From Bactericera cockerelli (taxonomy: Eukaryota > Arthropoda > Insecta > Hemiptera > Triozidae): 64,000 nucleotides of DNA. Shown here piece after piece: positions 15,554 through 64,000 of the stretch. Position numbers and translations under genes: made by a program. Position 1 is the first letter of the stretch, and each line of letters starts with the position of its first letter. The notes under the pieces are model-generated. The model made no database searches. It was given only the letters and a program-made list of their open reading frames with translations, and was not told the origin of the DNA. The stretch spans positions 14,693,880 through 14,757,879 of the forward strand of contig CM044960.1 in the NCBI GenBank assembly GCA_024516035.1, written 5' to 3'.

Positions 15554-18500
15554 ATGAAATTACTGACCAGTTATTCACCAAAAAATTTTATGTTTTAATT
15601 TTCTTTTTATCTATATTAACTTAAGTAAAGGACAGGCAGAGTTGGTGGAAAAATAGAACTTCCATTTTTATCGTTATTTCCTGCTATAGTAGATTTTATA
15701 ATTTATAATTATTGTGTCTACAAAAACTTCGGAACTTTCCAGACTGGTGTCATAAAGCCTCTAATATAACTCTCAGTACGCCCAAGTCTCGAAATACCTA
15801 AGTTAAGCTGACAGGAAACAAGCTCTGACAGCGAAAATGGAAAAATTAAACCCCTCTCCTGTGACAAGAGGACGATTTTAAATCTTCATAAATTAATATT
15901 ATGAAGGTTTATAATAACCATAGACAGACGATGAAAAAAAAAAGATTTTTTAAATGACTTTCAATGGAGGATTTTTCAATGGTTAGGTTCAAACCCTATC
16001 CTAACCAAGTTTAGTGAAAACCTACATGTATTATGTAAACTTTATATGGACCACAAGAGAATATTATACATATTAATGCTATAGGAAGGATTAACACAAT
16101 TGATACGTACGAAAATACTCGTAATCATACAAGATACCAATGCTGCCAGTGTGTTGTCAGCATTGCCATCAGAACAATTGCAGTCATTGTTTTATTTATA
16201 AATAAATACTAATAAATTTGAATTTTCCATTCAGATACCTTGTACCTAATGCTTGGCAATATCAATAAGCTTTGAGTGCTACACTTACCTGAGGAAGGGT
16301 GTAAGCAGGTAGGGTGTGCTTGTACTCCATGAAGATGTCATTGATGTTCTCGTGCCACCTGTAGAAGATGGGATCCCTCATGGCGGTGGTGGAGTCTCCC
16401 ATGACACCATAGTCTTCCTGCAACGCCAAGGTAACATGACTTTACTATCTAGAAAAGTTTGTAGGTTGTTGTTGTTTTTTTTTTAAGCTTTATTAGGTAG
16501 AACAAAAAATATATACAGTAGAACACAATGAAATATAAAGAAAAACAAAAAGATTAAACAAATATACAAGAAGGAAAAAAAAGAGAGAAAATATGTCCTA
16601 CCTAAAGAGCGGGGTTATTGCCTGTGGCAATCTCTTCCACCCAACCCTGTTGTTGTTGTTGTAGCCAGCTTGGCTACAGCTGGAGAGGTAAGTGATGGTC
16701 TCCAGCCAACTTTATTTGAAAAGTTGGCTCGTCCTGAACCACATACTTCTATGTGCAATCAACCATCATGAGGACTTGGACATTTCTTTATAAGCCATTA
16801 AACCCTTAGAAAACTGCAAGCTATCCTGGCTTGTAAGGGTTGGCTAGTCTGTTCTCTGTTTATAGTCCTCTAGCGAGACACTGGTCTTCTCCCTGTTTAA
16901 CGTCCCCCAGCCAGACACTGGTTTGTAGGTTTCTGACGTTGGCACCTCAAAAGCTTTGAGTGCTAAGTCGGAGTGGACTTGTAAGATCTCATCAGTTAGC
17001 CATAGCTCTGTTTTAAGCAACGTCAATCATGGAAAGGAAATAGATTGGTGTGCTTTGCGGGTTGGAATTAATTTGTACAAAACTTAGAAATTCATAATGA
17101 TTTTTTTGCTAAATTCCAGTTTCCTAGTCAAGCTGGGTGATTTCAATGTGAATGTCAGTGTTGTTTTCCCAGTGGATGTTGTTAGAAAGTGTATGTTGGG
17201 TACAGTCAGAAACACGTGATTGTATCTGGGAATGGTTTTTGCTAGAAATTAACCTGAGTGCTTCAACGGAAAAGAAACGTACTAGGTACCTACTTATACA
17301 CTATAATAATTAATTAATTATGTAGGTATTTAAACTATTACTAAACTTACTAACGTGATACTATCAAACATATTTTGTGTTGTTCAATATTGCGCTACAA
17401 TCACAACAAGAACATACCAGGGTCCATTTCGCCAGCACCACCACCTTTAAAATGTAAATTTTTTTTTACATGGGTATTTTGTGCTAATTTTGTGCAATTT
17501 TCGGGGTTTGCTGCACAAAATTGCACAAAATTAGCACAAAATACCCATGTAAAAAAAACATTACATTTTAAAGGTGGTGGTGCTGGCGAAATGGACCCAA
17601 CATACCAGGTATCTGTGCTACAATCACAGCAAGAACATACCAGGTATCTGCGCTACAATCACAGCAAGAACATACCAGGTATCTGTGCTACAATCACAGC
17701 AAGAACATACCAGGTATCTGTGGTCCGGGTCGTGGCAGAAGGCGATGGCGATGTGGCCGAAGTTGTGCAGCTCTCCGTACAACTTCTTGTTGATGGAGAG
17801 GTCACTGGCCTCCAGCATGTTGCCAAGCAGGTCAATGCCCTTCTCTTCTGTCAGGGGCACTTTGTCACCCCGGGGCTGGACACCAAATTCAGAAACAGCA
17901 TAAAATCATTATTATTATTATACAACGCTTTATTATATATAAATGGACATTATGTACATACAAATAATTATTTTAACAATAAAAAAAATTGAAAACAATA
18001 TATACAAAAAAACGAAAAAGAATAGAAAATATATAAAACATATGTCCTAACTAAAGGGCGGGGTTATTGCCTATGGCAATCTCTTCCACCCAACCCTTAT
18101 CTCCCTTACAATCATTCAGTTAAATAGATACACTATGGACCAGGACCTTATTCCAGAAAGTACTCTGACTCTCAAAATCCCCAAATCCCTCTTTCAGCCG
18201 TCAAAGTACGTTCTAATAAGCCAATCAGAGGTGTTGTTTACCCGATCAAATCAAAGATAATGACACTGATGAGCTGGGAATGGTTATGAGAGAGACCATC
18301 AGAATAATTTAGGCTAGCTCACGCCACTAACATCTGTATAATTAACCGAGATGTCTTCCCCTCGTCGAAATCGTATGTTGGTGGACAGATTAGGTGTGAA
18401 GTAGTGATGCCCAAACACAATGGACAAAATCCGCGTTTAAATTCTAAAATAAGAGAGATTTGAATTGAAACACAATAAAAGGAATTTTGAATAGTAAAGC

Positions 18501-21500
18501 TTTTTCCTGAAATAGATTTTATTTCATTTTTTAGAGTCATGAGTTGGTGGAATTTTTTTATAGTAGATACGCAGTGGTTTTTTCATGAGGGATTTATGTT
18601 TATCTCCCGCCAGCATCATTTTCGAGGGAAAATAAAACAGGATTCAGTAATTTATTTGAAATATGTATAGGAAAACAGATGTGAAAAGAAGGCGCTTGTT
18701 TTGATGTTTTCATTTATATTACACATCAAAACACACACACATGTGCACGCTTCAAAGTTTTCTTTTTCAACTTTTCCGCACGTTAAGCACAGAGTTTGAT
18801 ATCGATGCCTAAATTGTGCTTCTGGCTTGAAGTAAAAATACACTTTCTGGATAAAAAACGTACATATACTCGTAACCTATACATTTTTTTACTATTAAAA
18901 ATCAATGTTTTTGTTGCTGATTTATTATTTGTGTTTTTTTAAACATTTCTCCTATACTAATATTATGTGATGATCCATTAATATTTCCCCATATTGTGAC
19001 CAAACATATCATAAAAGAAATCCAGTCAACGTGTACCTTTAGGCCTATAGGCTATAGGGCCTATAATTGCTTTCCAGTATATTTTTATTTTACTTGTATT
19101 AGGTAATTACCGAATAATATCTATAGTCATTACGCAAGCATTTCTATTTTTATACTATCACTTCTGTAGAAAATATAATAATAATAATAATATCGCCTTA
19201 TTTATACTGCCCGATAAGGACTATTAAAGTCCCATTATTCCAGCAGTAAGCTCAAGAGGTATTATTATGTGGTAAAAATCCCAAATGGGATGATAATTTG
19301 TCATGTCCTGGCTGGGTTTCGAACCCACGACCTCTGGAACCTCTGGATTCACAGAGTGCCGCCTTTACCACTGAGCTACCGGTACATACCGTAATAAAGA
19401 TATTCTTACCGTAGCCACACTGCCGGTGTGAATGGCCTCCAAGATTCTGTCCCTCCATCTGTTCAGGTCATCCAGCTCGAAACGGAGACGCTCGCTATCT
19501 CTGTTTAGATCCTATGGAGAAGACAAATGCCGACCATGAATTAATTTATCAGGGTACCTGATTTGCAAGTTTTCAGAGAATGGAGGGTAAACCCCCTGTC
19601 TTGATAAATTAGAATAGAATAGAATAGAATATACCTTGTTTATACTGCCGAGGTAAGACTGAAAAGTCCCTTTACTCCAGCAGTCATTTGTTGTTGTTAT
19701 GACCATATAGTTATAACCTGAAGCAGTTCAAAGGGACGTTGAATTAAAACTTGGCACTTTATCTCCGCAAAGGTTTTGTGCCCTTGTCTGACGTGCATTT
19801 AGAGTTTCATAACTACTGGAAAAAGTAGCTTAGTTACAAACTAGGCAAAGAGGTACCTACTAAAGGTATTCACTAAATTTAATATTTTAATTCCAGTGTA
19901 CCTATCACAAAACTTACCAAAAGCACATGGTTCATTTTATATTTTTTGTACCTGCTATTCGGAATTTCTATTAAAATAATTTAATTTGGTCTCTCATTTC
20001 TCAGAACAGGAAAATTTGTTCCCCGGATGTTCTGAAAAAAAAGTACGAACTGAGGGGTCAACTCCCTTCAACTTCAAACAAATTCTAGGAATTTTTCCAT
20101 CACGTTGCTTTGAGTATTTTCTTTTGAAATTGTCGTTCTGGAAAGAGAGAGACCGTGCTCCAGAGAAAACAATAAAGCTACATGTCATGTCAACAGTAAA
20201 CAGAAATTCTCATAAACGGGAATTTTCTTGGAAAAGTGAAAAGAGCTATCAGTGAGTAAATCAGCCGGAAGCTCTTTTTCCTTTTCGATTAGATACCGAA
20301 CCGTGTTTACTGAAATTTTGTCAACCCACTGTAATTATCTTTTCCTTTTTACTATGGTTACCTTTCATCCACTACATCGTGTAGGTTTAATGTAATTATA
20401 TAATATTGTATATTATAATGTATCTGATTTCAACTTCAAGTCTATTACGGAGTTAGAAAAAAAAATATACTGTGCTGAATCAGAAATTTCTCGTATAGGT
20501 CAGAGTGTATCTTAGACTGATTATTCTTCAAGCTTGAGTTGAAATATAATTATTCAGTCTTATCGCCTAAAGTACGGAGATAGCAAAAGTTCTAATATTT
20601 AATGTATTTTACTACTCACGAGTTCTCATGGTTATTTCGAGGGGAGGGTACACTCAGATTCAAGAAGAACATTCAGAAGCAAAAATCTGATTTTGAACAT
20701 GGGGGTAACCTCAATTGTAGGGATATACAATTCCCCTAATATGTAGGTACCTGTTACCTGTTAGGTACATAAATAATTAATTATAACCTATTACATAATT
20801 ATAACCTAGAAAATATTAAGAAAAAAATCATAATGAGGGACTTACACTCAGAACTGTGTTCTTGAATCGTGGGGGCCAGGTCCTGGATGCATTAGCGGCA
20901 TCTAGCTTGGAAAAGTAAGCTTCAGGGATGGGGTCCTTCAGGTTGCTGAACTTGCGAGTCCTCTTTAGCTTGTTGCTGAGACGCTCTGCGTTGTACCTGC
21001 AACAATATCGGTACATTAAAGTAATAGTACGAGGATGAAGCTCAAAAATATCTTTTCCTATGACGGAGGTAATAATACTGCGAAAAGGAACAGTTCTTCT
21101 TATTTTCTAATAAATTGCACTCTACCTTTTTCCAAACCTACTTGGGGTGGGCGTTGTTCGATGAATTTTGTTCCCCATTGCGAAAAGTAACAGTGATATT
21201 ATTTTTTTAATTTTCAATGGCGGCTGGCTGTTCCAGACCTAAGCCAGACTTGAAGAGGTGAAGCACCAAAAGAAGGAAAACTATGAAAGTCCTGACATTT
21301 TAATTTCTTGAAATTATTATTTCATAATTTTCGGAAAAACATAAATAAGAGAAGAAAAAAATTCAAAACTCAGGCGGACATAAGATATAAAATTATCCTA
21401 TCATTTAGCATTTTGACCACATAAAATATAACTTGGGCTTACTGCCAGATTTATAAGACTCATAAATCTTAATCAGGAAGTATGAGGCGATATATATTAT

Positions 21501-23446: not shown

Positions 23447-23481
<35 letters not shown>

Positions 23482-23520
23482 CATGTCCTATTTTGTTGAA
23501 TGTATGTAGTTGACCAATAA

Positions 23521-23555
<35 letters not shown>

Positions 23556-25558
23556 CATTGTTCCAACGAAGCAATTTGACAAGCTCCACTTACAAGAACA
23601 ATGAGAAGAAATTAAGATAGTGAGAGAAAAAAAAAAAAAAAAAAAAAACAACAACAACAACAACGAGTTAAATAATAATAATAATAACTCACCCTAGATC
23701 CCTCATCCACCAGGTTCGCCTCCTCCCTCATCCTCACGAACACACTCTTGTCCATGAACTTGTCCGGCAGCACCTCCGCGAAGGCGGGCAGAGGGATCTC
23801 CTTGCAGTCGGGGCGGTGTAGGATTGCCACTGACAGGGCGTAGATGTACATGTAAGGGTTCATACGGTCCCGACAGTACACGCTCAGGGATTGGAAGTCC
23901 TCGAACGACTTTTGCTCTGAAATAGAAGGAAATTGAACCTCAGTTAAGGAGCAAGGACTCTGATTGTTAAGTCTCCTCTGTAAATAAATATCATTAAAAA
24001 AAAAAGAACCTCAGTTAGAAAAATTAGTGATAAATGGAAAAAAAGCTATTCACATGTGCTATGTTGGCTCAAAGTGAAAATACAAATTTCGATAGTGAGA
24101 GCAGTACTCGAACGACTTTTACTCTGAAATAGAAGGAAATTGAACCTCAGTTAGAAAAATTAGTGATAAATGGAAAAAAGCTATTCACATGTGCTATGTT
24201 GGCTCAAAGTGAAAATACAAATTTCGATAGTGAGAGCAGTATCCATACTATCCATGAGAGTGAGAGGAGCGAGACGGAGGATCAGAAGGATTGAATGTGA
24301 AGATGGTGCAGGAATGGGACGAGTAGAAGAATGATGTTTAACTTTGGTATTGTAATTTAAAAAAATATAATAAAAATATTTAAAGTTTTGAAAAAAAACC
24401 TCAGTAACGTGTCAGCGTTCATGGCACATTGAACCACACCAGTTCCATTTCAGTGACTGAAGTTAAGCAACGTCCAGCGAGGCTATAACTTAGATTGGCG
24501 ACCAACTGACCTTTCAAATGCGAACCCGCGTCATGCTGGCTATTCTCGGCCCCACTCAGGCTTGGTGATGTTAATTTGAGTATCTGGTTTGTGAGTTTCG
24601 GGCGAATAGAGAGTAAAACTCCCGTCGTCATATTATGACCATGCAGTTGAACGCAACGTTGAATCATATTATTAAATGGCGGTATGGAATGGACTTGCCT
24701 ACCAATGCCAAAAAAACGGAAATTAAAAAAAAAAAACTTAAACTTATTAGGGGATAACCATATAATTAAAATTAAAAAAAAACTTACGCATGAGAGCATT
24801 GACCAGGTTGGTGGCGCAGGCCCGGTGCTGAGGGATGAACAGGGAGAAGGCGCCCCGCCTATCCATGGACATGGCCTGGCTCAGGTCGGGCAGACTCGAC
24901 AGCGTCTTCACCGGGATGTTGTTCTGCTGTCCGACCGAGAACCGGTTCTCCAAGTCATCCGCCAGCGGCTTGTACCTATAATAATAATAATAAAAGTTTA
25001 TTTATTTATTTTCTTTATAAAGAAACATTTATACAAAGGTACTTACTTCTAATAAGCTTTGAAGAGCTTCTAAGAGAAGTGTGTTACTTGCAAGATTGAA
25101 TGACACATAGTGTTTAAGTGACTACTCAATCGAGCATTACAATATTATACTAAAGGTACATAATTATTAAAGGTACATAATATTAAAACAATAAATTATT
25201 AAATAGTAAAGATTTTACCCTAAAATTTCAATTCAAAACAATATTATCTATACATGGTATCAGTTGTGACTTCAGATCTGAATAATTTTCAACATTTTGT
25301 AGTGAGGTTACCATGCTGTTTAGAAATGTTGGTACAAAGTAATTTGGTATTTTTTTGCAGTAATTAGAGCTAACTCTTGGTACATTAAATGACTGTCGAC
25401 GAATATGGTATGTTATAGCAGTCTTACCGGTCGGGCAGATAGTCGGCCGGGATGTTGAAGCGCACCTTGAGGTCATCGCCCTTACCCACCACCAGCGGCT
25501 CATTGGGTCGGTCGAACAGGTAGAGGATGTTCTTCTTGTCCGAGGGATTGAAAGACAT
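9447..25558 (-). CDS. PPO: Prophenoloxidase (hemocyanin superfamily), complete coding region, 12 coding exons
   Basis: Zymogen of phenoloxidase, the type-3 copper enzyme that hydroxylates monophenols and oxidises diphenols to quinones in insect melanisation and wound or immune responses. Coding exons: 25558-25428, 24975-24788, 23916-23693, 22099-21897, 20996-20846, 19511-19410, 17875-17711, 16417-16289, 15301-15113, 12073-11938, 11133-10898, 9791-9447. Every junction is GT-AG and phase-consistent, giving 732 residues; insect PPOs are usually about 680-700. Copper A ligands are H214, H218 and H243 (motif HHWHWH); copper B ligands are H370, H374 (LHNFGH) and H410 (FYRWH). The predicted activation cleavage is R55-F56 (ENRF). 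GCGWPQHM is at 586-593. There is no signal peptide, as is normal for PPOs, which leave haemocytes by lysis. The extra length is a low-complexity tail, residues 689-732. The start has context AAAATGTC and matches the family N-terminus ([15 protein letters not shown]). Confidence 0.96.
9880..10006. mobile_element. PIF/Harbinger-type MITE in PPO intron 12
   Basis: 19-bp terminal inverted repeats CAGCCGTATTTATGAACAG flanked by TTA on both sides; 127 bp in total. The 3-bp TTA duplication is typical of PIF/Harbinger elements. Confidence 0.75.
10018..10208. mobile_element. MITE with CCCACTGAGT termini
   Basis: Inverted ends GGCCGAGATCCCACTGAGT and ACTCAGTGGGATCCCGGCT flanked by TAA; also probably PIF/Harbinger type. 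A diverged relative lies near 61.81-62.25 kb. It sits only 11 bp from the MITE at 9880-10006. Confidence 0.65.
10898..11133 (-). CDS. PPO: PPO exon 12 (residues 540-618, GCGWPQHM motif)
   Basis: Contains the thiol-ester-like motif GCGWPQHM, typical of arthropod PPOs, followed by [20 protein letters not shown]. Enters in phase 1 and leaves in phase 0 at AAG|GTAAGT. Confidence 0.96.
11306..11520 (+). mobile_element. 5S-derived SINE in PPO intron 11
   Basis: GCACCGGTTCTGGTAGGATC and AAAGTTAAGCAACG followed by the shared tail GTTTGTGAGTTTCCTGCGAA and GTCGTGATATGACCATG. Confidence 0.65.
11742..11850 (+). mobile_element. tRNA-derived SINE family E, fragment
   Basis: CATGCACGGTGACCTGGATTT and a following AATCCCGGCTGGGT resemble the family E head (copies at 31.4, 34.6 and 53.0 kb). 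Confidence 0.5.
11938..12073 (-). CDS. PPO: PPO exon 11 (residues 495-540)
   Basis: Encodes [20 protein letters not shown] to ELDRFVVE in the C-terminal domain. Acceptor ctgcag at 12074; the donor GAAT|GTAAGT leaves phase 1. Confidence 0.94.
12148..12318 (-). mobile_element. tRNA-derived SINE family H, antisense
   Basis: Read on the minus strand: TGGCTCAGTGGTTAAGAGCA (A box), then GGGTTCGAATCCCGGCC (B box), then a tail ending in a long poly(A), seen as poly(T) at 12122-12144. Lies 75 bp upstream of PPO exon 11. Confidence 0.7.
12412..13421. mobile_element. 1.0 kb TIR element with repeated GTGATTAGTCC motif
   Basis: Perfect 30-bp terminal inverted repeats (12412-12441 and 13392-13421; outer end GAGGAGCTTTTTTTCAGACC), flanked by ATTT on both sides. 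Inside, CCGTGATTAGTCC-like motifs recur at least five times. An open frame (12580-12789, 69 residues) has no recognised domain. Family not identified. Confidence 0.75.
13430..14560. other. AT-rich intron sequence of PPO
   Basis: Intron between PPO exons 11 and 10. I see only low-complexity AT-rich sequence and no coding or repeat signal that I can name. Confidence 0.5.
14565..14712 (-). mobile_element. tRNA-derived SINE family D, antisense
   Basis: Carries the reverse complement of GACTCGTAACCGGAG and the GTGATATCACAA tail seen in six sense copies elsewhere. Confidence 0.6.
14738..15100 (-). mobile_element. tRNA-derived SINE family G, antisense, composite
   Basis: Head (minus strand) GCGCGATTAGCTCAGCGGTT and GGTCCCGTGTTCGATCCCCC, with an A-rich region and a tail of conserved blocks (ATGGGCGAG, GGTGCTGGGTCAACACGAGC). 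A further SINE tail is inserted near 14.96-15.02 kb. The head ends about 12 bp from the exon 10 donor. Confidence 0.7.
15113..15301 (-). CDS. PPO: PPO exon 10 (residues 432-494)
   Basis: Encodes [13 protein letters not shown] to [13 protein letters not shown], the start of the C-terminal beta-sandwich domain. The donor AAC|GTGAGT at 15112 is only about 12 bp from the head of an antisense tRNA-derived SINE. Confidence 0.95.
15512..15549. repeat. Poly(T) tract
   Basis: 38 consecutive T in the PPO intron; the reading is a homopolymer and its true length is uncertain in any assembly. Confidence 0.8.
16289..16417 (-). CDS. PPO: PPO exon 9 (residues 389-431, third copper B ligand)
   Basis: Encodes [22 protein letters not shown] and onward; H410 completes copper B. 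Acceptor ttgcag at 16418; donor CAG|GTAAGT at 16288. Confidence 0.95.
16485..16650. mobile_element. Dispersed repeat K (CCTAACTAAAGGGCGGGG family)
   Basis: A-rich block, then GTCCTACCTAAAGAGCGGGG and TTGCCTGTGGCAATCTCTTC. The same family recurs at 17.92-18.10, 21.66-21.89, 35.57-35.72 and 49.12-49.29 kb. It looks like a retroelement 3' end. Confidence 0.55.
16650..17035 (-). mobile_element. Dispersed repeat J, inverted copy
   Basis: About 380 bp beginning TTGTTGTTGTAGCCAGCTTGG and containing GGTTGGCTAGTCTGTTCTCT. The reverse complement lies at 34.89-35.21 kb in an intersectin intron; short pieces flank the 36-bp array near 48.9-49.07 kb. Confidence 0.65.
17394..17710 (-). repeat. 35-bp tandem array of the PPO exon 8 donor site
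   Basis: Unit GCTACAATCACAGCAAGAAC plus 15 bp, spaced exactly 35 bp (17617, 17652, 17687; the first at 17394 once the MITE is removed). On the transcribed strand each unit repeats the last 11 exon bases and the donor ACAGATACCTG|GTATGTTC. The true donor at 17710 is the first copy. Confidence 0.85.
17420..17598. mobile_element. 179-bp foldback MITE with 9-bp target duplication
   Basis: Nearly its whole length is an inverted repeat (ends GGGTCCATTTCGCC), with a loop of about 14 nt. A perfect 9-bp duplication AACATACCA flanks it (17411-17419, 17599-17607). It lies inside the 35-bp donor array and carries TTTTGTGC repeats like the large foldback element. Confidence 0.9.
17711..17875 (-). CDS. 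PPO: PPO exon 8 (residues 334-388, first copper B ligands)
   Basis: Encodes [12 protein letters not shown] and [20 protein letters not shown], supplying H370 and H374. Exactly 55 codons, phase 0 on both sides. The donor CCTG|GTATGT is the first of five tandem near-identical copies that follow in the intron. Confidence 0.95.
17915..18105. mobile_element. Dispersed repeat K copy
   Basis: A-rich block followed by GTCCTAACTAAAGGGCGGGG and TTGCCTATGGCAATCTCTTC in the PPO intron 7, close to exon 8. Confidence 0.6.
18110..19180. other. Intron sequence, nothing identified
   Basis: PPO intron 7. AT-rich, with no coding support or clear repeats. Confidence 0.5.
19183..19386 (-). mobile_element. tRNA-derived SINE family A, antisense, full length
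   Basis: Tail (ATATCGCCTTATTTATACTG) to head (GGTTTCGAACCCACGACC; ACCACTGAGCTACCGG) all present. 24 bp from the PPO exon 7 donor. Confidence 0.75.
19410..19511 (-). CDS. PPO: PPO exon 7 (residues 300-333)
   Basis: A short exon of exactly 34 codons ([20 protein letters not shown] and onward), phase 0 at both ends. The donor ACG|GTAAGA lies 24 bp from the head of a tRNA-derived SINE. Confidence 0.92.
19609..19690 (-). mobile_element. SINE tail, TACCTTGTTTATACTGCCG family
   Basis: ATAGAATATACCTTGTTTAT and ACTGAAAAGTCCCTTTACTC. Further copies at 51.83-51.90 and (sense) 62.10-62.18 kb; related to the family A tail. Confidence 0.55.
19695..20845. other. PPO intron 6, nothing identified
   Basis: AT-rich. 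An open frame at 19986-20255 has no recognised domain and no splice support. Confidence 0.45.
20846..20996 (-). CDS. PPO: PPO exon 6 (residues 249-299)
   Basis: Encodes [13 protein letters not shown] to FKNTVLS between the two copper sites. Acceptor ttgcag at 20997 (phase 2); donor AGT|GTAAGT at 20845 (phase 0). Confidence 0.93.
21655..21895. mobile_element. Dispersed repeat K, two opposed copies
   Basis: GTCCTAACTAAAGGGCAATA followed by CCCCGCCCTTTAGTTAGGAC makes a head-to-head palindrome near 21.70-21.75 kb, then an A-rich tail that runs up to PPO exon 5's donor. Confidence 0.6.
21897..22099 (-). CDS. PPO: PPO exon 5 (residues 182-249, copper A)
   Basis: Contains [20 protein letters not shown] and ELFYYMHQQ, so all three copper A ligands (H214, H218, H243) are in this one exon. 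Phase 0 in, phase 2 out at CTAG|GTATGT. The donor abuts the A-rich end of a dispersed repeat. Confidence 0.96.
22105..23195. other. PPO intron 4, left part, nothing identified
   Basis: AT-rich intron sequence without coding or repeat signal I can name. Confidence 0.45.
23202..23300 (+). mobile_element. tRNA-derived SINE family D
   Basis: GACCTCAGTAGCTCGATCAA, then GGAGGTCGGTGGTTCGAGTC (B box), then TAGTAAAGCGAGTTGAAGT. Confidence 0.65.
23345..23452 (+). mobile_element. tRNA-derived SINE family A, head only
   Basis: GTCCCGGTAGCTCAGTGGTA and GAGTTCGAAACCTAGCC; cut off by a long poly(T) at 23452-23479. Confidence 0.65.
23693..23916 (-). CDS. PPO: PPO exon 4 (residues 107-181)
   Basis: N-terminal helical hemocyanin domain, including [19 protein letters not shown]. 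Acceptor ctatttcag at 23917; the donor AGG|GTGAGT gives phase 0. The first 20 or so bases of the exon and its acceptor recur about 205 bp upstream as a degenerate copy. Confidence 0.95.
23896..24240 (-). repeat. Duplication of PPO exon 4 acceptor region
   Basis: The exon 4 start with its acceptor (TCGAACGACTTTTGCTCTGA on the plus strand) and following intron recur at 24109-24240 with a few changes (TCGAACGACTTTTACTCTGA). The first copy was later split by a SINE tail (about 23946-24003). Confidence 0.75.
24411..24665 (+). mobile_element. 5S-derived SINE in PPO intron 3
   Basis: Diverged copy: ACACCAGTTCCATTTCAGTG, AAGTTAAGCAACGTCCAGCG, and tail CCGTCGTCATATTATGACCA. Confidence 0.65.
24788..24975 (-). 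CDS. PPO: PPO exon 3 (residues 44-107, activation site)
   Basis: Encodes [15 protein letters not shown] and onward. The Arg-Phe bond R55-F56 in ENRF is where clip-domain serine proteases cut arthropod PPOs. Enters in phase 2 and leaves in phase 1 at ATGC|GTAAGT. Confidence 0.95.
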
Positions 25559-25583
25559 TTTGCTTGGGCTGAGTTGGGTTCGT
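25428..25583 (-). CDS. PPO: PPO exon 2 (start codon, residues 1-43)
   Basis: The acceptor ttcag is followed by 25 nt of 5' UTR, then ATG at 25558-25556 (coding part 25428-25558). It encodes the family N-terminus and ends in phase 2 at CCG|GTAAGA. The acceptor region is duplicated once, 94 bp upstream. Confidence 0.95.
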
Positions 25584-25755
25584 CTGAAGGCGTTTAAAAA
25601 ATAAAAGTAAAGGCTAAATGATATATTTTACATATTTTAAACCACAACTTAAAAAAAAACTGTGGAGTTGGGTTAGTCTGAAGACGTTTATAAATTAAAA
25701 GTAAAGGCTAAATGATATATTTTACATATTATAAACCACAACTTAAAAAAATTGC
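25565..25755 (-). repeat. Two-copy tandem duplication spanning the PPO exon 2 acceptor
   Basis: 94-bp spacing between GAGTTGGGTTCGTCTGAAGG and GAGTTGGGTTAGTCTGAAGA. Each copy contains a 3' splice site (cttcag) and about 12 bases of 5' UTR exon. Confidence 0.75.
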
Positions 25756-26440: not shown

Positions 26441-26475
26441 AATAATAAAAAGTAAAAAGGAGTAAAAAATCTTAC

Positions 26476-26573: not shown

Positions 26574-26596
26574 GAACATACGACCTACATACAAAG

Positions 26597-54300: not shown

Positions 54301-57300
54301 TCTTCCCTCGTCAGAATCTTGCTCTCCTTCAGTGGCTTTTCAAACACCTGCCCAGGGGGAGAATAATAAAGTTAGGTCTTGAGTAATGTTTACGTAAAAC
54401 CATAAAAGATACGTAAGATGATAAAAGATTTTTAATACATATATGTACCTAAACACGGAGTAATACAATTTCATGTACAACAATAGATAATGTATAAAAT
54501 AGATGCTGCAGATTTAGCAACGAGATATTCTTGATAAATATTCAATTAAATTATATTTAATTGAATTAAAAGAGAAAAGTGGAGAACCAATAGCCAAGAC
54601 CTACCTCTACCAATCCCTGTCCTTGGCGATACAGAAAGGGAATGCATCCAGTATTCTTGGGACTTTTCCTCCCAATCCCTCTCTGGACTACATCTACCAA
54701 CTTTAATATGTTTTTTTGTTTCATAAATAAAGCTATAATCCAATATATAAAAAAAATTAAATTCAATGCACCACTATACACACCTCGTGTACGATGGACA
54801 TGTCTTCAATATATGCCTGTTCAGTGTCGATGAGTTCAGCGATACACTGCTGTCTCTTCTTATCCTCTGTGGTGAAGGATGTGGAGAGTCCATCAGAGCT
54901 TTCGTCGTCTATAACAGAAAATCAGTTCAATATCAGTCGGACCTGGATATAAGAGACGAATTTCCCGGGTCCAATTTACCTCTCTTCGAGGGAGAGTAAC
55001 CTTTTTATAAGAAAAACCTGGATATAAGAGAAAATAATGCTGGTCCCTTGAGTTCTTTTATACCCAAGTTCGACTGTACTAGCAAAAAATAGGAAGAATT
55101 CGGTTTAATTGTAACTTGAAAAAGGTATTGATAAATGCTCTGATTGATCTTGAATTCTGCACTTCCACCTTAGAAAATATTAACCCCACAAAATTGGAAT
55201 TTTTCGACAGGTTTGTAGCGTATGGTGAGGAGAGGTAGTAGACTAAATAAACCTGTATATAAATGAAGTCAAGTCTTCACGTTTCCATTAAATTCAGAAG
55301 ATTAAAAAAAGATAATTTTATCACCTAACAAAAAAATCTCTTAAGCCCGTCTGGAAATAAAACGCAGAATAATACCCCTAGAGTCTTGACTCGGGGCGTT
55401 ACACAACGAAATAAAAAGTACACTAAAGCATTACATCAATTAGACCAGCTAATTACAGTCTCAGTGAATTAAGTCTAGTTCGCTGAACTTTCATTTTGAA
55501 AAAAAATTTACACAATATTTTCAGAATTTTATAATAAGATTAATGTTGAACAGCCTTTTTCACATTTCATAGCTATGAAATAGAAGCCGCTTAGACGCTC
55601 GTAGTCTACGTTGTAGATAACTTATCCCGTGGTATGTCTCTTGCCTCCCTCTGATAGATACAAAGAGACACAATGCTTCCCATTTAGGGTCAACAACTCA
55701 TCACAAGAGCACCGTAAAATATTCTTTGCAAATATTTATAAAAAGTGAATATTTTTTTTTTTTTGTTTTTAAATACCGGAGCTTTGCCATAAGTGTGCTC
55801 TTAATTTAGAATTGCTTTAAAATATCCAAGACTTCACAAATTTCGTCTTCTACTTAGTACTTCATACGAACACACCACACAGACATGAATATATTTCCCG
55901 TCAACCTTGCCCAGGTACTTACTGTATCTTGCTCGACAGAGATTGAGGAGGTTGTAGTCATGAAGAAACGCAAAAATCCAATAATGTGGACGAAAACATT
56001 TTCTCCAAGGAAATTAAATCAGATCTTGTTTTGAATGTACGTTAATATCACAGATTACACGCAAAAATCCAATAATGTAGACGAAAACATTTTCTCCAAG
56101 GAAGTCAAATCAGATCTTGTTTTGAATGTACGTTAATATCACAGATTACACGCAAAAATCCAATAATGTAGACGAAAACATTTTCTCCAAGGAAGTCAAA
56201 TCAGATCTTGTTTTGAATGTACGTTAATATCACAGATTACACGCAAAAATCCAATAATATAGACGAAAACATTTTCTCCAAGGAAGTCAAATCAGATCTT
56301 GTTTTCAAAGTAGGTTAATATCACATATTATATTATTTTCTCCGGTTACCCCCAAAATAATTCCTGTCGTTGAGAAAGGCACGGACATTTATCTCACGGT
56401 GGCGGAAATATTATAAAGACGCCCAGATCTAATGTCTAAGCTCCTTACATATCCCTCGGTGGTCGAGAGGTTGTTTTTGTTGTCCTAGTGGTTAAATTAA
56501 GGCGCTAGTCTAGTAATGCAGGTATTAGTGATCCGTTGGTTCAAATTCCACATAATGGATAAATTTTTCCTTATTTATTTGAGCACTTGACCACATAATA
56601 ATGACACCAATACAACTGCTGCAGTAATGGAACTCTTTAGTTTTATCGGGAGGCATAAGTGTTTATTATTATTTTAAATAGTTCCATTTAGAATTAACGT
56701 CCTGATAAAATGTAAAAATAGGGGTCTACCCTCCATTCACTGGAAATCGAACCAGCTACCCACAGTGCTCATGCCCATATTAACTGTAACCAGAAATGGT
56801 AGGTTGGGCCAGAAATGGTATGCTCTCGTGATAGTTGATTTCGTAAATTAACGAAACGGAATTTTTCGTTTGAAAAAGTGCCCCACCATGGATTTAACGC
56901 ACGACTACTGGACACAAAGCAATAGTGAAAAAAATCTACCACGAAAGTTGGCACTATTATTTCCCTAGAACCTCATCAGATTTAGGTAGGGGTTCAAACT
57001 CTTGTTTGCTTCCTTAGCCTATTCCTGCGTTACAAGTACATGGATATAATTGGGGACATTAGACATAACCTTAGTGCTTTTTAATTTACTAAGGAAAGTT
57101 GTTTAATTTTACTTTTCATACGAAAAGAAAGGAATCCATTTAGCTATGTTGGTACAATGCTAATCAAGTATTAGCATTCAACTTCATCCCCCAGAAATTA
57201 AAGAGTCAATCTTTGAGTGCTCTCAACATACAACATATATTTATTCAACTAGCAATCCATAATAATTCCATATTCAAATGGCTCAAATTCTCTTAAATGA

Positions 57301-63300: not shown

Positions 63301-63527
63301 TAACTTTTATTTTGTTAGGAAAAGGGGGCTGGGGGTTGCGCAACCGAATCCTTATTCAAAAAGGGTCGCGAAGTGAACAAGTTTGAAAAACGCTGGGTTT
63401 AATTACCTTGGCTGAGTGGCTGGTCAGTGGGTTTGGGGGAGGCGGACTTGCTGCCGGCCCCTCCCCCTCCCATCACCTTCACATAGGACGCAGGGAACCA
63501 GCCCACTTGACGCTTCTTGCCCTTAGC
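32921..63527 (-). CDS. Itsn: Intersectin, long form (Dap160/ITSN), 3' part: SH3-D end, SH3-E, DH, PH, C2
   Basis: Endocytic scaffold; the long form adds a DH-PH module that in vertebrate intersectin activates Cdc42, and a C2 domain. Exons in the window: 63527-63407, 62775-62611, 54908-54784, 54347-54241, 53373-53301, 52502-52296, 51791-51708, 50477-50324, 38012-37797, 35557-35360, 34281-34072, 33060-32921. All junctions are GT-AG and phase-consistent, giving 599 residues to TAA. Landmarks: [15 protein letters not shown] (end of SH3-D); [15 protein letters not shown] to GLFPSNY (SH3-E); [29 protein letters not shown] and [15 protein letters not shown] (DH); GPRKFLHHG and FLLNDMLLL (PH); CQVTMGSQ and [14 protein letters not shown] (C2); end LDLHLFNK. 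The EH domains, coiled coil and first SH3 domains lie beyond the right edge. Drosophila Dap160 lacks DH-PH-C2, so this form is more like vertebrate ITSN-L. Confidence 0.95.
33143..33215 (+). mobile_element. tRNA-derived SINE family G, head
   Basis: GCGCGATTAGCTCAGTGGTT and TCGGGTTCGATCCCCC with a GCC-like anticodon position. No closing acceptor stem, so not a tRNA gene. Confidence 0.6.
33412..33700 (+). mobile_element. Two SINE family D copies in tandem
   Basis: GACCTCAGTAGCTTGATCGA at 33416 and GACCTCAGTAGCTTGATCAA at 33561, each followed by a GGTTCGAGTC or GGTTCAAGTC B box and the AAGCGAGTTTAAGTA-type tail. Confidence 0.7.
34072..34281 (-). CDS. Itsn: Intersectin exon: C2 domain core
   Basis: Encodes [20 protein letters not shown] to [20 protein letters not shown], the C2 beta-sandwich with its LNTLEPKWN loop. 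Acceptor is a C-tract plus ag; donor CTAG|GTCAGT. Confidence 0.95.
34304..34606. mobile_element. SINE family A: antisense tail fragment and a full sense copy
   Basis: 34304-34345 is an antisense tail. 34397-34606 is a full copy (GTCCCGGTAGCTCAGTGGTA, GGGTTCGAAACCTGACC, ATAAATAAGGCGATATTATT). Confidence 0.75.
34620..34870 (-). mobile_element. tRNA-derived SINE family E, antisense, full length
   Basis: TCCGCCACTGGTAGCTGCTC, GGTATGAGTGGACACCGAAT, GACCGAACCCAGGTCACCGT and TTGACCACGGTGAC. Confidence 0.75.
34890..35215 (+). mobile_element. Dispersed repeat J
   Basis: Reverse complement of the copy at 16.65-17.03 kb; ends in CTACAACAACAACAACAACA. Its 62-residue open frame is not a gene. Confidence 0.65.
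35360..35557 (-). CDS. Itsn: Intersectin exon: end of PH, start of C2
   Basis: Encodes [35 protein letters not shown], then [15 protein letters not shown]. The Trp in NLWIKRL is the invariant PH C-terminal helix tryptophan. Phase 1 in and out. Confidence 0.93.
35565..35720. mobile_element. Dispersed repeat K copy
   Basis: TATTTAGAAACTCTTTGTTA through an A-rich block to GTCCTAACTAAAGGTGTTAT. It begins 8 bp upstream of the PH/C2 exon acceptor. Confidence 0.55.
35926..37014 (-). mobile_element. Non-autonomous Helitron, second family, with a (CA)n expansion
   Basis: 3' end CTAGCGGGTTACACCCGCCG (hairpin then CTAG), 5' end TCTATATCTATAAAAGAAAG. It contains about 2.5 tandem units of about 180 bp (AGCTCAAGAATGGCTCATCA and so on) and a 445-bp CA-rich microsatellite. 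It truncates the SINE at 37018. Confidence 0.75.
35955..36399. repeat. Long (CA)n/(CCACA)n microsatellite
   Basis: CA dinucleotides with frequent CCA interruptions over about 445 bp. The long His/Thr and Cys/Val frames here are artefacts of the repeat. Confidence 0.9.
37018..37208 (+). mobile_element. SINE family A, head truncated by the Helitron
   Basis: Starts inside the A box (GATAAAGGCGGCACTCTGTG), then the usual body to ATAAATAAGGCGATATTATT. Confidence 0.7.
37797..38012 (-). CDS. Itsn: Intersectin exon: PH domain core
   Basis: Encodes [20 protein letters not shown] to [20 protein letters not shown]. Acceptor tattgcgcag at 38013. The acceptor and the first 13 exon bases are reiterated as a 36-bp tandem array upstream, which is interrupted by a 10 kb transposon, so the preceding intron is 12.3 kb. 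Confidence 0.93.
38013..38131 (-). repeat. 36-bp array of the PH-exon acceptor, exon-proximal part
   Basis: The true acceptor plus three more copies of the unit (transcribed strand: GCGTTCTGTCTAATAATATC, then TCTCTCTATTGCGCAG). Each has a branch-site-like CTAAT, a pyrimidine-rich tract and CAG|GC. Confidence 0.85.
38500..39250. repeat. 91-bp subterminal tandem repeat, about 8 copies
   Basis: Unit GCAACATAATGTTGATTTCA, CAAGTAGAATACATTTAATT and TTACACCTGTTCTTCAGATA, spaced 91 bp. Near-identical copies; probably the left subterminal region of the transposon. Confidence 0.85.
40644..41133. mobile_element. piggyBac-type MITE with 48-bp internal repeats
   Basis: TTAA on both sides (40640-40643, 41134-41137) and inverted ends CACTCTCGCGATC / GGTCGCGAGTG. 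Inside, about six units of TGGTACAAACGTGTCTACAC plus GGAATAGACCGGTTAG. Confidence 0.7.
41399..42387. mobile_element. hAT-type non-autonomous element
   Basis: Ends TAGGGATGGG and CCCATCCCTA with a perfect 8-bp duplication TCACTTGT (41391-41398, 42388-42395). Rich in internal GACTCGATTC-like motifs; part of the left end is repeated at about 41.57 kb. Confidence 0.85.
42546..45270 (+). pseudogene. DUF4806-like accessory gene of the transposon, broken
   Basis: Exon-like pieces at 42546-42762 ([20 protein letters not shown], stop, [13 protein letters not shown]), about 44430-44566 ([38 protein letters not shown]) and 45084-45270 ([20 protein letters not shown], then a Lys/Arg-rich tail). The N-terminal IVQF...IIPQN...YWP and the [13 protein letters not shown] block resemble DUF4806 proteins that travel with animal DNA transposons. 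In that family Asn is usually followed by Trp; here TAG replaces it. The last junction is not phase-consistent as I read it. Function unknown. Confidence 0.45.
43594..43997. mobile_element. MITE with AAAGCGGTTTTTTTTATGTG termini
   Basis: About 26-bp inverted ends (AAAGCGG, T-run, ATGTGAACGAA) with internal GGTCAGG/CTGACC blocks; 404 bp, inside the 10 kb transposon. The target duplication is not clear. Confidence 0.6.
45570..46479 (+). pseudogene. Internally deleted CMC-type transposase
   Basis: The first frame (45570-45914) starts [17 protein letters not shown] with a basic N-terminus. The second (45886-46479) reads [40 protein letters not shown], the conserved DUF4218-like C-terminal block of CACTA/CMC transposases. 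The frames overlap in different phases and the whole DDE catalytic core is absent. It looks like a deletion fusing near-terminal parts. A stop follows NDITDSSF. Confidence 0.6.
47345..47380. other. 36-bp hairpin ATACAGGGTGTCC...GGACACCCTGTAT
   Basis: Perfect 13-bp arms around a 10-nt loop; the TACAGGGTGTCC motif is a familiar short dispersed hairpin in insect genomes. Within the transposon. Confidence 0.7.
47640..47995. repeat. Right subterminal repeats of the 10 kb transposon
   Basis: About six imperfect units of about 60 bp with TAGAAGGGTAATATGGAT and GTAACAATAGTATTCCA-type blocks. Confidence 0.6.
48272..48990 (-). repeat. 36-bp array of the PH-exon acceptor, distal part
   Basis: About 18 further units, the same as those at 38.01-38.13 kb. 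The outermost copy (48965-48990) extends further into exon sequence (TTTTAGACAGAACGCCTG on plus), proving the exon junction is the source. The two parts were one array before the 10 kb insertion. Confidence 0.85.
49118..49285. mobile_element. Dispersed repeat K with poly(A)
   Basis: GGCAATAACCCCGTCCTTTA and GTTAGGACATATATTATGTA to CCTAATAAAGTGTAAAAAAA; the AATAAA plus poly(A) end supports a retroposed origin. Confidence 0.6.
49603..49728. mobile_element. Tc1/mariner (pogo)-like MITE, copy 1
   Basis: Inverted ends CAGTCGAATCTGGATATAAG and TATATTCAGGTTCGACTG between TA dinucleotides. Confidence 0.75.
50009..50262 (+). mobile_element. Non-autonomous Helitron, copy 3
   Basis: TCTTAATATATAAATGTC start; GCGGGCGACAGCCCGCTAG end; A-T insertion site. 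About 60 bp from the intersectin exon donor at 50324. Confidence 0.8.
50324..50477 (-). CDS. Itsn: Intersectin exon: DH-PH linker and PH start
   Basis: Encodes [20 protein letters not shown] to [18 protein letters not shown], near-identical in layout to ITSN1. The donor G|GTAATA at 50323 abuts the tail of a SINE. Confidence 0.95.
51060..51262 (-). mobile_element. 5S-derived SINE, antisense, degenerate
   Basis: On the minus strand: TGAATGCACCAGTTCTCGAT, AAGCAACGTCCAGTGAGGTT, then CCAGCCTGG and GGACAGGAAATGCC-type tail pieces. Confidence 0.5.
51708..51791 (-). CDS. Itsn: Intersectin exon: end of DH
   Basis: 28 codons ([20 protein letters not shown] and KAEEFCTQ), matching the ILENTPENHPDHSHL region of ITSN1. 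Donor CAA|GTAAGC. Confidence 0.94.
52070..52170 (-). mobile_element. tRNA-derived SINE family I, antisense
   Basis: TGCATTGGTTGGGATTCGAA and GGATTACCAGACTAGCGTCT match the family I head. Confidence 0.55.
52296..52502 (-). CDS. Itsn: Intersectin exon: DH core
   Basis: Encodes [20 protein letters not shown] to [20 protein letters not shown] and LISK. This holds the conserved DH helix [11 protein letters not shown], which contacts the GTPase. Exactly 69 codons, phase 0. Confidence 0.96.
52970..53210 (-). mobile_element. tRNA-derived SINE family E, antisense
   Basis: TGCCGCCACTGGTCGTTACT, GGTATGAGTGGACCCCGAAC and GGTATCGAACCCAAGTCACC. Confidence 0.7.
53301..53373 (-). CDS. Itsn: Intersectin exon: DH domain, third segment
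   Basis: A short 73-bp exon encoding [20 protein letters not shown] and LCEH. Acceptor tttccag at 53374; donor CAT|GTGAGT. Confidence 0.92.
53478..53740 (+). mobile_element. 5S-derived SINE, full length
   Basis: GCCAGCGTCGATGGCATGTT, ACACCGAAGCTAAGCGACAT, TTGGATGGGTGACC, then the common tail and poly(A). Confidence 0.8.
53938..54240 (-). repeat. 29-bp tandem array of an intersectin splice donor, 11 copies
   Basis: GCTTACC begins at 53941, 53974, 54003, 54032, 54061, 54090, 54119, 54148, 54177, 54206 and 54235. On the transcribed strand each unit reads ATATGTTTCTGAG|GTAAGCAT, copying the last exon bases and the donor. All 11 keep GT, with single changes in a few units (GTATGC at 54148; CTGTG at 54177). 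Confidence 0.9.
54241..54347 (-). CDS. Itsn: Intersectin exon: DH domain, second segment
   Basis: Encodes [19 protein letters not shown], then [16 protein letters not shown] and a split Arg. The donor CTGAG|GTAAGC (GT at 54240-54239) is the first of 11 tandem copies in a 29-bp array. Joining to 53373 restores NHMFLRALRVRR, equivalent to CNIKLLKALRVRK of human ITSN1. Confidence 0.9.
54784..54908 (-). CDS. Itsn: Intersectin exon: start of DH domain
   Basis: Encodes [20 protein letters not shown], then [21 protein letters not shown], the first DH helix. Acceptor gttatag at 54909; donor GAG|GTGTGT. A Tc1/mariner-like MITE begins 25 bp upstream of the acceptor. Confidence 0.93.
54934..55076. mobile_element. 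Tc1/mariner (pogo)-like MITE, copy 2
   Basis: Ends CAGTCGGACCTGGATATAAG and TATACCCAAGTTCGACTG, with AT and TA next to them. 25 bp from the DH exon acceptor. Confidence 0.7.
55545..55745 (-). mobile_element. SINE family G tail, degenerate
   Basis: GCTATGAAATAGAAGCCGCT, CTTATCCCGTGGTATGTCTC and CTTCCCATTTAGGGTCAACA match family G tails near 7.7 and 14.8 kb. Confidence 0.5.
55968..56331. repeat. 91-bp tandem repeat, 4 copies
   Basis: ACGCAAAAATCCAATAATGT plus 71 bp, starting at 55968, 56059, 56150 and 56241. The left edge abuts a donor-like TACA|GTAAGT context on the minus strand (near 55920). Confidence 0.85.
56478..56680 (+). mobile_element. tRNA-derived SINE family I
   Basis: TCCTAGTGGTTAAATTAAGG, GATCCGTTGGTTCAAATTCC and a tail with AATGGAACTCTTTAG. 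Confidence 0.6.
57240..57245 (-). terminator. Poly(A) signal for the candidate short intersectin
   Basis: AATAAA on the minus strand about 95 bp after the stop of the candidate alternative last exon. Confidence 0.4.
57338..57663 (-). CDS. Itsn: Candidate alternative last exon of intersectin (short form)
   Basis: The acceptor tctacag at 57664 opens a frame whose phase exactly matches the end of the SH3-E exon (T plus AT makes Tyr), reading 107 residues to TGA at 57340-57338. AATAAA on the minus strand at 57245-57240 lies about 95 bp further on. The peptide is Pro-rich at first, has an NPF motif ([10 protein letters not shown]), then FPNF and FFDF, and ends in a Cys-rich stretch. NPF is what EH domains bind, and intersectin has EH domains. 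Vertebrate intersectin also has short forms ending after SH3-E. Alternatively, a weak donor at GGGC|GTGAGG, also phase 1, could make this a cassette exon. Confidence 0.5.
58712..58975 (+). mobile_element. 5S-derived SINE, full length
   Basis: The best copy: ACACCGAAGTTAAGCGACAT and CTTGGATGGGTGACC match the 5S rRNA internal promoter, followed by the shared tail ending GACGTTAAACCCC and poly(A). Confidence 0.85.
59040..59200 (+). mobile_element. tRNA-derived SINE family D
   Basis: GACCTCAGTAGCTTGATCGA, GAGGTCGGCGGTTCAAGTAC and TAGTAAAGCGAGTTTGAGTA. Confidence 0.7.
59205..61530. other. Intersectin intron, nothing identified
   Basis: AT-rich sequence between the SH3-E exon and the alternative last exon. 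A tRNA-like GAGTTCATCGTGGCGACCCC segment near 60.94-61.03 kb is too degenerate to call. Confidence 0.5.
61538..61560. repeat. Poly(C) tract
   Basis: More than 20 consecutive C followed by A7. On the transcribed strand this is poly(G), able to form quadruplex structure. Confidence 0.85.
61618..61698 (-). mobile_element. tRNA-derived SINE head, antisense
   Basis: Minus strand: GATGGTTAAGAGAACTATAT (A box-like) and GCGGGTTTGATTCCTGCCCG (B box). A single-copy head type in this window. Confidence 0.5.
62315..62577. mobile_element. piggyBac-type MITE
   Basis: TTAA at both sides (62311-62314, 62578-62581) and inverted ends CACATTGACTGCCA / TGGCAGTCAACGTG; internal GCCACGTCACAC repeats. 34 bp from the SH3-E donor. 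Confidence 0.75.
62611..62775 (-). CDS. Itsn: Intersectin exon: SH3-E
   Basis: A complete SH3 domain: ALYDY, the acidic RT loop, DWWKGQ, GLFPSNY. Its phase-1 end can join either the alternative last exon at 57663 or the DH exon at 54908. Confidence 0.95.
62998..63075 (+). mobile_element. SINE family A tail
   Basis: TTTTGACCACATAATAAGAG and ATAAATAAGGCGATATTATT. Confidence 0.6.
63407..63527 (-). CDS. Itsn: Intersectin exon: end of SH3-D and linker
   Basis: Begins [20 protein letters not shown], the last strands of SH3-D, then a Gly/Ser/Pro linker. Acceptor ccccag at 63528 follows a long tandem array of branch-point-like units. Leaves in phase 1 at CAAG|GTAATT. Confidence 0.93.
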
Positions 63528-63530
63528 CTG

Positions 63531-64000
63531 GGGAGTGGGAACACAATGGACAACAGTTAGTATCTGGACAGGGGAGTGGAAACACAATGGACAACAGTTA
63601 GTATCTGGACAGGGGAGTGGAAACACAATGGACAACAGTTAGTATCTGGACATGCAGGGAATGGAAACACAACGGACAACAGTTAGTGGCTGGACAGGGG
63701 AATGGAAACACAATGGACAACAGTTAGTATCTGGACAGGGGAGTGGAAACACAATGGACAACAGTTAGTATCTGGACAGGGGAGTGGAAACACAATGGAC
63801 AACAGTTAGTGTCTGGACAGGGGAGTGGAAACACAATGGACAACAGTTAGTATCTGGACATGCAGGGAATGGAAACACAATGGACAACAGTTAGTGTCTG
63901 GACAGGGGAGTGGAAACACAATGGACAACAGTTAGTATCTGGACATGCAGGGAATGGAAACACAATGGACAACAGTTAGTGTCTGGACAGGGGAGTGGAA
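63531..64000 (-). repeat. 41-44 bp tandem array at the SH3-D exon acceptor
   Basis: At least 11 copies of GGGAGTGGAAACACAATGGA plus CAACAGTTAGTATCTGGACA, running off the window. On the transcribed strand each unit has TACTAAC or CACTAAC (ideal branch site) followed by a pyrimidine-rich stretch ending in CCACTCCCC. The exon-proximal copy ends in AG and is the real acceptor. Confidence 0.9.

Follow-up and report, generated by a model that had tools for sequence, protein, structure and literature searches.

In the window (the whole 64,000-nucleotide stretch of Bactericera cockerelli DNA that was analysed), five exon-intron junctions of two minus-strand genes, encoding prophenoloxidase (PPO) and intersectin, lie within local duplications that contain 12 to 21 bp of exon and an intact splice site. 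These exon-edge arrays are probably splice-junction minisatellites (mirages), in which the exon-proximal splice site is used and the other copies are intronic decoys. The repeat units at the six junctions originally proposed are unrelated, and a like structure occurs at unrelated loci on many contigs, which bears out the original prediction of a recurrent process and not one repeat family.

Repeats over exon edges in the PPO and intersectin genes

Exon edges in the window were set by open reading frame, splice consensus and protein alignment, and repeats were called by TRF and by self-comparison. When joined, PPO exons 2 to 8 gave a single continuous alignment (residues 8 to 387) to solved phenoloxidases, with a best E value of 7e-146. 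The joined DH, PH and C2 exons of the second gene, with the SH3 exons left out, gave a single alignment to intersectin-2 (residues 15 to 500, E value of 6e-142), which was weak where the PH exon meets the exon that follows it. Separately, an Rfam search of the window matched 5S rRNA twice and tRNA once, and a myosin search returned 77 matches.

Exons and junction repeats in the window
Feature	Position	Strand	Details and basis
PPO exon 8	17711..17875	-	ends in HDPDHRYL, then gtatgtt; frame, splice consensus, protein alignment
35-bp array over PPO exon 8 donor (edge 17711)	17599..17722	-	3.5 copies, 12 bp of exon; TRF, self-comparison
PPO exon 4 (acceptor edge 23916)	23693..23916	-	frame, splice consensus, protein alignment
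Duplicated acceptor region, PPO exon 4	23896..24241	-	self-comparison
PPO exon 2, first coding exon	25428..25583	-	frame, splice consensus, protein alignment
94-bp duplication over PPO exon 2 acceptor (edge 25583)	25571..25751	-	1.9 copies, 13 bp of exon; TRF, self-comparison
Intersectin PH exon (acceptor edge 38012)	37797..38012	-	frame, splice consensus, intersectin-2 alignment
36-bp array over PH acceptor	38000..38131	-	3.7 copies, 13 bp of exon; TRF, self-comparison
Second array of the PH 36-bp unit, same intron, ~10 kb upstream	48272..49073	-	~17 copies in 48272-48902, degraded tail to 49073
Intersectin DH exon (donor edge 54241)	54241..54347	-	VFEKPLKES...VCNHMFL; intersectin-2 alignment
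29-bp array over DH exon donor	53936..54260	-	11 copies, 19-20 bp of exon; TRF, self-comparison
Intersectin SH3-D exon (edge 63527)	63407..63527	-	frame, splice consensus; domain letter D from the original prediction
41-bp array by SH3-D exon	63530..64161, past window end (64000)	-	at least 11 copies; branch site TACTAAC and pyrimidine tract

Repeats had been proposed to straddle at least six junctions, and five of the six named were confirmed. The sixth array stops 2 to 3 bp before the SH3-D exon, has TG in place of the acceptor AG and contains no exon bases; it therefore abuts its exon and does not straddle the junction. Among the five, the PPO exon 4 acceptor is a gapped duplication rather than an array: 51 bp (23896-23946), including 21 bp of exon, are copied 207 bp upstream at 24103-24153 with 96% identity, with nested copies at 24039-24106 and 24174-24241. 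A stray copy of the PPO exon 8 unit lies at 17391-17421. The second array of the PH unit was absent from the original prediction, and one of its copies, which begins at 48985, agrees with the PH exon over the initial 17 bases of that exon. Equally new are two further straddled intersectin donors, whose edges fall past the end of the window, at 65172 and 93170 when counted in window coordinates; the 66-bp unit at the latter recurs 8 to 10 kb away.

Frequency of repeats at junctions and within introns

Two samples were used. The 264-kb sample comprised 59 exons of five genes, namely the 20 window exons and 39 chosen by eye from 90 predictions. The kinase sample was drawn from across the genome: 60 kinase windows minus 13 near-copies left 47 unique loci, and 94 junctions minus 10 (at 8 loci) with splice scores of at most 1.5 left 84 with confident scores. 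Edges of kinase exons, and of exons flanking the finding, were predicted by a model whose training set was the 20 window exons. Among the first 40 kinase loci, two initially lacked an acceptor: L049, which was recovered by widening the limits, and L047, for which its near-copy L076 was substituted. A third kinase batch was added once the first result was known, mostly for near-copies, and the first 38 exons were also counted separately.

Contrary to what the original prediction had expected, raw overlap did not exceed the overall repeat density: repeats covered 7 of 117 junctions in the 264-kb sample (6.0%, vs 10.2% of intronic bases) and 14 of 76 in the kinase sample (18%, vs 18% of kinase-exon flanks). 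Overlap is not excessive because repeats fill the introns of this genome, and the same coverage does not support the proposal that they are tolerated only at junctions. Likewise, 7 of 118 junction probes had a copy nearby, vs 33 of 300 random intron probes. The raw-overlap test does not allow for the loss of the exon that a repeat would cause at most positions across a junction.

As a matched control, we scored shallow intrusion, in which a repeat covers a point but extends no more than 80 bp past it in one direction, at junctions and at intron pseudo-junctions. In the kinase sample, 16 of 84 junctions were straddled in this way vs 5.4 expected from the same loci, an approximately 3-fold excess (P ~3e-4) that comprised 7 of 41 acceptors and 9 of 43 donors at 12 of the 47 unique loci. 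The first 38 kinase exons alone gave 14 of 76 vs 5.05 expected. The excess persisted with TRF alone (10 vs 3.6 expected) and when copies had to share 97% identity or more (11 vs 2.3). Masking dispersed repeats left an expectation of 5.5 against the 16 seen, so dilution of the intron control by such repeats was rejected as a sufficient cause. The 264-kb sample showed 7 of 117 vs 3.8 to 4.0 expected at the 80-bp limit, which was not significant (P 0.09 to 0.11), and 7 vs 2.5 to 2.7 at a 40-bp limit (P 0.015 to 0.019); only 2 of the 80 junctions flanking the finding were straddled. The case for enrichment therefore rests on the kinase sample, and the proposal that the mechanism favours junctions holds there but extends neither to the 264-kb sample at 80 bp nor to the flanks. 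Pooling all junctions outside the finding gave 18 of 164 vs 8.0 expected (P 0.002). Eight of 23 straddled junctions are gapped and not tandem (PPO exon 4, 65172, L041, L044, L049, the L051 acceptor, and the L057 and L062 donors).

Repeat coverage, which was 0.15 to 0.22 in introns, continued across the junction without a fall, at 0.185 over exon bases 1-10, and faded within the exon to 0.123 at 11-20 bp and 0.021 at 41-80 bp. Repeat ends were denser in the exon-edge zone (2.4 per kb) than in introns (1.1 per kb). Among 98 exons (59 from the 264-kb sample and 39 kinase loci), 19 had junction-spanning copies, vs a single one with its interior copied nearby, partly, that exon itself carrying an array. 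No whole-exon copies, as in duplicated (mutually exclusive) exons, occurred within ~1.4 kb of these 98 exons.

These repeats might be ordinary intron minisatellites without junction preference, some of which cross exon edges by chance while selection removes the deep ones. We take this explanation seriously without favoring it: raw coverage at or below background fits it, as do the 264-kb result at 80 bp and the sparse flanks, but it does not account for the pooled result or for a kinase excess that is robust to detector, identity cutoff and masking. Selection, moreover, should reduce and not increase shallow intrusion. Survivorship offers another route to an excess: duplications would form at an even rate everywhere, but copies tied to a conserved exon edge would accumulate differences less quickly and so remain recognizable for a longer time. 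Intronic copies indeed differed from the functional copy at 9 of 591 positions in the exon part vs 74 of 2,191 in the intron part, as one constrained partner predicts. The 264-kb sample showed no excess among copies at least 97% identical (3 vs 2.15 expected), unlike the kinase set. Since the kinase excess is as large or larger in that class, where slow decay matters least, we rejected slower decay beside conserved exons as a sufficient cause and consider survivorship doubtful as the overall explanation.

A raised duplication rate at junctions is the leading candidate cause of the modest excess. A bolder proposal is that DNA duplications preferentially originate at junctions, where a transcription- or splicing-linked mutational process would copy junction-centred segments, both tandemly and 8 to 10 kb away within one intron, so that introns would lengthen by repeating their own terminal sequences; we put this forward as speculation that is rather unlikely to hold.

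Splice signals, reading frame and copy number

GT or AG was kept in all 69 aligned intronic copies, which came from 12 of 14 arrays; a copy was counted if its alignment covered at least 75% of the unit, and the other two arrays gave no aligned copies. In these copies the splice core differed at 21 of 539 positions and the intron part at 74 of 2,191, so that the core was not the better conserved of the two (P 0.6, copies within an array not being independent). An earlier version of this comparison (core 38 of 488, rest 125 of 2,256, P 0.07, with 4 copies scored without GT) was dropped, as it was spoiled by small indels. The suggestion that extra copies stay splice competent thus agrees with their GT or AG dinucleotides but not with the wider splice core, which has changed at the same pace as the remainder of the unit.

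The intact dinucleotides could mean that repeated splice sites are kept for splicing efficiency or alternative isoforms. The PH array would suit such a function, as its unit leaves the frame open and upstream acceptors would therefore each add 12 residues. At the 15 of 23 straddled junctions where use of the next copy was read out, however, it would cause a frameshift or an added stop in 14, and unit length was a multiple of 3 in 7 of the 15 arrays; in-frame use is therefore not selected for. With a splice core no better conserved than its surroundings, we find functional arrays improbable and rejected selection for in-frame alternative splicing as a general cause, the PH array being a possible exception.

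Copy number varies between duplicated loci that have a unit in common. L046 and L071 carry 7 vs 3 copies at the acceptor and 5.7 vs 3.2 at the donor, and L036 and L070 also differ; such pairs are alleles or paralogues. An assembly or annotation artefact seems very unlikely. Exon edges are predicted, not transcript-based, and near-identical kinase loci 0.08 to 0.5 Mb apart on one contig suggest retained haplotypes or duplications; yet duplicated loci have common arrays at different copy numbers, the exon joins fit the phenoloxidase and intersectin-2 alignments, and the same detector gave no hits on 47 Markov-shuffled loci.

On the minisatellite reading, a short segment across the exon edge and its splice site would be duplicated at the DNA level, mostly in tandem, and the resulting array would then expand and contract as other minisatellites do, presumably through slippage or unequal exchange. 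The exon would be unharmed while the exon-proximal copy is used. Duplications born across a junction are, on our best reading, tolerated because this copy, which we infer to be the spliced one, gets spliced.

Relation to introners, intron gain and lancelet mirages

Introners (PMC9860276, as far as its available text goes) are repeats that carry splice sites, as here, and insertion of such mobile elements or of other dispersed repeats at exon edges would fit the recurrence of the PH unit 10 kb away and of the 93170-donor unit; but a genome search, in which only the best candidates were scored and very common words were skipped, located the PPO exon 8 array at a single site and the PH unit at two sites within one intron, and a comparison of 24 repeat blocks found units of different junctions unrelated, so we rejected a single dispersed family or introners and regard this origin as extremely unlikely. 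Unlike introners, the arrays are local, and within that two-unit search and 24-block comparison no sequence common to introns of different genes was found. The Rogers model, as described in the available part of PMC3087553, proposes that introns are gained when sequence around AG/GT proto-splice sites is tandemly duplicated. For such a gain, the duplicated piece of exon has to provide the new intron's two ends. The model and the insect arrays both involve duplications that include splice signals; unlike in that model, existing junctions are here repeated into existing introns, and no new intron was seen.

The closest parallel is with the lancelet mirages, minisatellite-like duplications of exon-intron boundaries in Adh, the globins BflGb6 and BflGb9, troponin C and PGBD5 (PMC3087553; PMC3902484). 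In the accessible portions of those reports, mirages are tandem boundary duplications at both 5' and 3' boundaries, with varied unit lengths, AG/GT in many copies and variable copy number, all of which recur in the insect, where copy number differs between duplicated loci. Mirages are further characterized by length instability between alleles, to which the copy-number differences of the L046/L071 and L036/L070 pairs would correspond if these are alleles, and by undisturbed regular splicing. Here the unit spans the boundary at five window junctions and at 16 of 84 kinase junctions, both boundary types are involved and copies carry AG or GT, the SH3-D array being without AG. Our literature search met splice-boundary minisatellites only for lancelets (PMC3087553 and PMC3902484, as excerpted), which does not imply their absence elsewhere.

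Within a single array, as many as roughly a dozen near-identical splice sites can follow one another at spacings of tens of bases, and usually only one of them gives a working message if expression is normal. The arrays thus form a natural experiment on splice-site choice, on intron growth and on the proposed role of mirages as seeds of new introns. The lancelet mirages, studied with RT-PCR, were described gene by gene, to judge from the same portions of PMC3087553 and PMC3902484. The insect arrays, known here from DNA sequence alone, differ in their host, in their occurrence at many loci at once with a matched control, and in secondary arrays 8 to 10 kb off in the same intron. Their presence in an insect at many loci, assessed against that control, suggests that mirages are a wider phenomenon.

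Junctions within repeats in PPO and intersectin

The window lies within a contig of 41.6 Mb in an assembly of 565 Mb and 1032 contigs. We positioned 20 exons from splice consensus and frame; 19 of them, with 37 junctions, fall in the interval under study (17394..64000). When joined, exons 2-8 of the prophenoloxidase gene (PPO) gave a single continuous alignment with solved relatives, as did the joined DH, PH and C2 exons of intersectin, the latter alignment being weak near the join following the PH exon. By E-value, the proteins nearest to PPO are bee phenoloxidases (63% over 98%), and the highest identity among the matches listed is to a shorter protein of the psyllid Diaphorina citri (84% over 68%).

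The original prediction placed repeat arrays at six exon-intron junctions. Five of these indeed have exon bases and the splice site inside the repeat, and we call such junctions straddled; the sixth, at the SH3-D exon, falls away, as its array ends 2-3 bp short of the exon and has TG in place of the acceptor AG. Two further straddled donors of intersectin lie beyond the window. Among 24 repeat blocks compared at a cut-off of E 1e-3, the PH array and an array at 48 kb have a unit in common, the blocks at 65 kb and 93 kb share a 24-bp match, and no other relatedness was found.

Features in and near the window (window coordinates)
Feature	Position	Strand	Remarks
PPO junctions within repeats: exon 8 donor, exon 2 acceptor, exon 4 acceptor		minus	exon bases and splice site included
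Intersectin junctions within repeats: DH donor, PH acceptor		minus	exon bases and splice site included
Further straddled intersectin donors	edges 65172 and 93170	minus	beyond window
66-bp unit arrays	83538-85461 and 92076-93204		beyond window (loci L011-L012); the 92076-93204 array is at the donor of intersectin exon 93170-93324, the other toward the opposite end of what appears to be a single intron
Near-perfect palindrome	17420-17598		adjoins PPO exon 8 array; 82-nt arms, 98% complementary, 15-nt loop; splits one unit copy (17391-17421) from the array; apparently a MITE insertion within a mirage (duplicated boundary)
42-bp tandem repeat	9474-9567		in apparent last PPO exon; encodes RPQQGNQ-type repeats; looks like a coding minisatellite at the PPO C-terminus
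296-bp satellite arrays	451-1851 and 4966-6602		one family, opposite orientation, 3 kb between
5S-rRNA-like sequences	53477-53762 and 58711-58961		Rfam matches 53477-53598 and 58711-58835; fused to a recurring stretch, together resembling a 5S-derived SINE family; similar translated stretch near 7712-7900

In a genome search in which the best candidates were scored, the 36-bp PH unit was found at two sites, both in one intron: at the PH acceptor and, ∼10 kb upstream, in a longer array. One copy in this longer array is a match to the PH exon's first 17 bases. The unit of 66 bp at the 93170 donor is found again at 83.5-85.5 kb, ahead of the next predicted exon (82497-82656) and hence apparently within a single intron. 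These two units were the only ones with distant copies among 118 exon-edge probes in 264 kb (the interval and its flanks; five genes, 117 junctions), compared with 0 of 43 exon-centre probes. Random intron probes had distant copies in 59 of 300 cases (at most five copies in 25 of the 59), as dispersed repeats would give.

Repeat overlap against background and matched controls

Junctions had been expected to overlap repeats more often than overall density would give, and this did not hold: in the five genes, 10.2% of the intronic bases (133 kb) lie in repeats versus 7/117 junctions (6.0%), and in windows around predicted kinase exons the figures are 18% of flank bases versus 14/76 junctions. 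Nor did coverage in the five genes increase with proximity to the exon (6.5% at 1-5 bp, 10.6% at 21-50 bp, 10.8% at 401-800 bp).

Since a junction-crossing repeat has to stop at a shallow depth in the exon, the fair control is an intron point with shallow intrusion, and we used random intron points under a repeat ending within 80 bp on one side. In the 264 kb, 7 straddled junctions were observed versus 3.8-4.0 expected (P 0.09-0.11), five of the seven being cases from the original prediction; with a 40-bp limit, there were again 7, versus 2.5-2.7 expected (P 0.015-0.019). Outside the interval, 2 of 80 junctions were straddled. For the 264 kb as a whole, restriction to TRF (5 versus 2.9 expected) or to copies at least 97% identical (3 versus 2.15) was convincing in neither case.

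Kinase exons were located genome-wide with a kinase profile and chosen before their repeats were seen. The first 38 exons gave 14/76 straddled junctions versus 5.05 expected (P 4e-4), and all 47 unique loci gave 16/84 versus 5.4 (P 3e-4), the latter expectation being based on locus-specific rates. The 16 are spread over 12 of the loci, and same-locus junctions are not fully independent. The excess persisted with TRF alone (10 versus 3.6), with copies at least 97% identical (11 versus 2.3), with a 40-bp limit (11 versus 3.2) and with control points outside dispersed repeats, which occupy 24% of the flanks (16 versus 5.5). Markov-shuffled loci contained no repeats. Pooling all junctions outside the interval gave 18/164 versus 8.0 expected (P 0.002); including the interval gave 23/201 versus 9.2 (P about 1e-4), a total that contains the cases that prompted the test.

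The kinase excess may arise because junctions duplicate more often or because extra splice sites bring some benefit. Slower decay beside conserved exons is unlikely to be its main reason, because the youngest class of kinase copies is in excess too.

A dispersed element of ∼200 bp is common to the flanks of seven kinase exons (L033, L045, L052, L053, L063, L064, L068) and lies at most about 30 bp from the exon in L045 and L053. Seven pairs of kinase loci (L032/L072, L034/L073, L046/L071, L050/L075, L065/L080, L081/L082, L083/L084) have members 0.08-0.5 Mb apart, each pair within a single contig, and contain stretches 95-99.6% identical, some inverted; this suggests either retained haplotypes or recent segmental duplications.

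Exon edges, copies and likeness to lancelet mirages

The repeated segment can start only a few bases within the exon or as many as several tens, and it runs into the intron. Coverage is 0.15-0.22 in the intron and 0.185 over the first 10 exon bases, with no drop at the junction, and declines deeper in the exon. Junction-spanning copies were found in 19/98 cases; an exon interior was duplicated nearby in 1 of 98 exons, itself array-bearing. This fade and the rarity of interior copies are probably the trace expected from duplication at the DNA level combined with selection on the exon: a junction-spanning duplication would leave the exon intact provided that its own edge stays in use, and a tandem duplication within the exon would disrupt it.

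GT or AG was present in 69/69 aligned decoy copies. Their splice core is not better conserved than the intron part (21/539 versus 74/2191 differences), and most decoys therefore act like neutral passengers. For 14 of the 15 arrays read out, among 23 straddled junctions, use of the next copy would cause a frameshift or add a stop; we therefore infer that the splicing machinery must choose the exon-proximal copy. Only the PH array departs from this, its 36-bp unit being open and preserving the frame. Copy number varies between near-copies of a locus: kinase locus L036 has about ten consecutive copies versus two, a ∼200-bp interruption and six more in its near-copy L070, and the number of copies differs between L046 and L071 on both sides of the exon.

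The original report of mirages reportedly dates from 2002. Mirages are tandem repeats across exon-intron boundaries described in lancelets, in Adh, globins, troponin C and PGBD5 (PMC3087553, PMC3902484). The present loci share those structural features of mirages that were open to testing. With a common origin neither claimed nor needed, we class them as the same kind of structure as the lancelet mirages.
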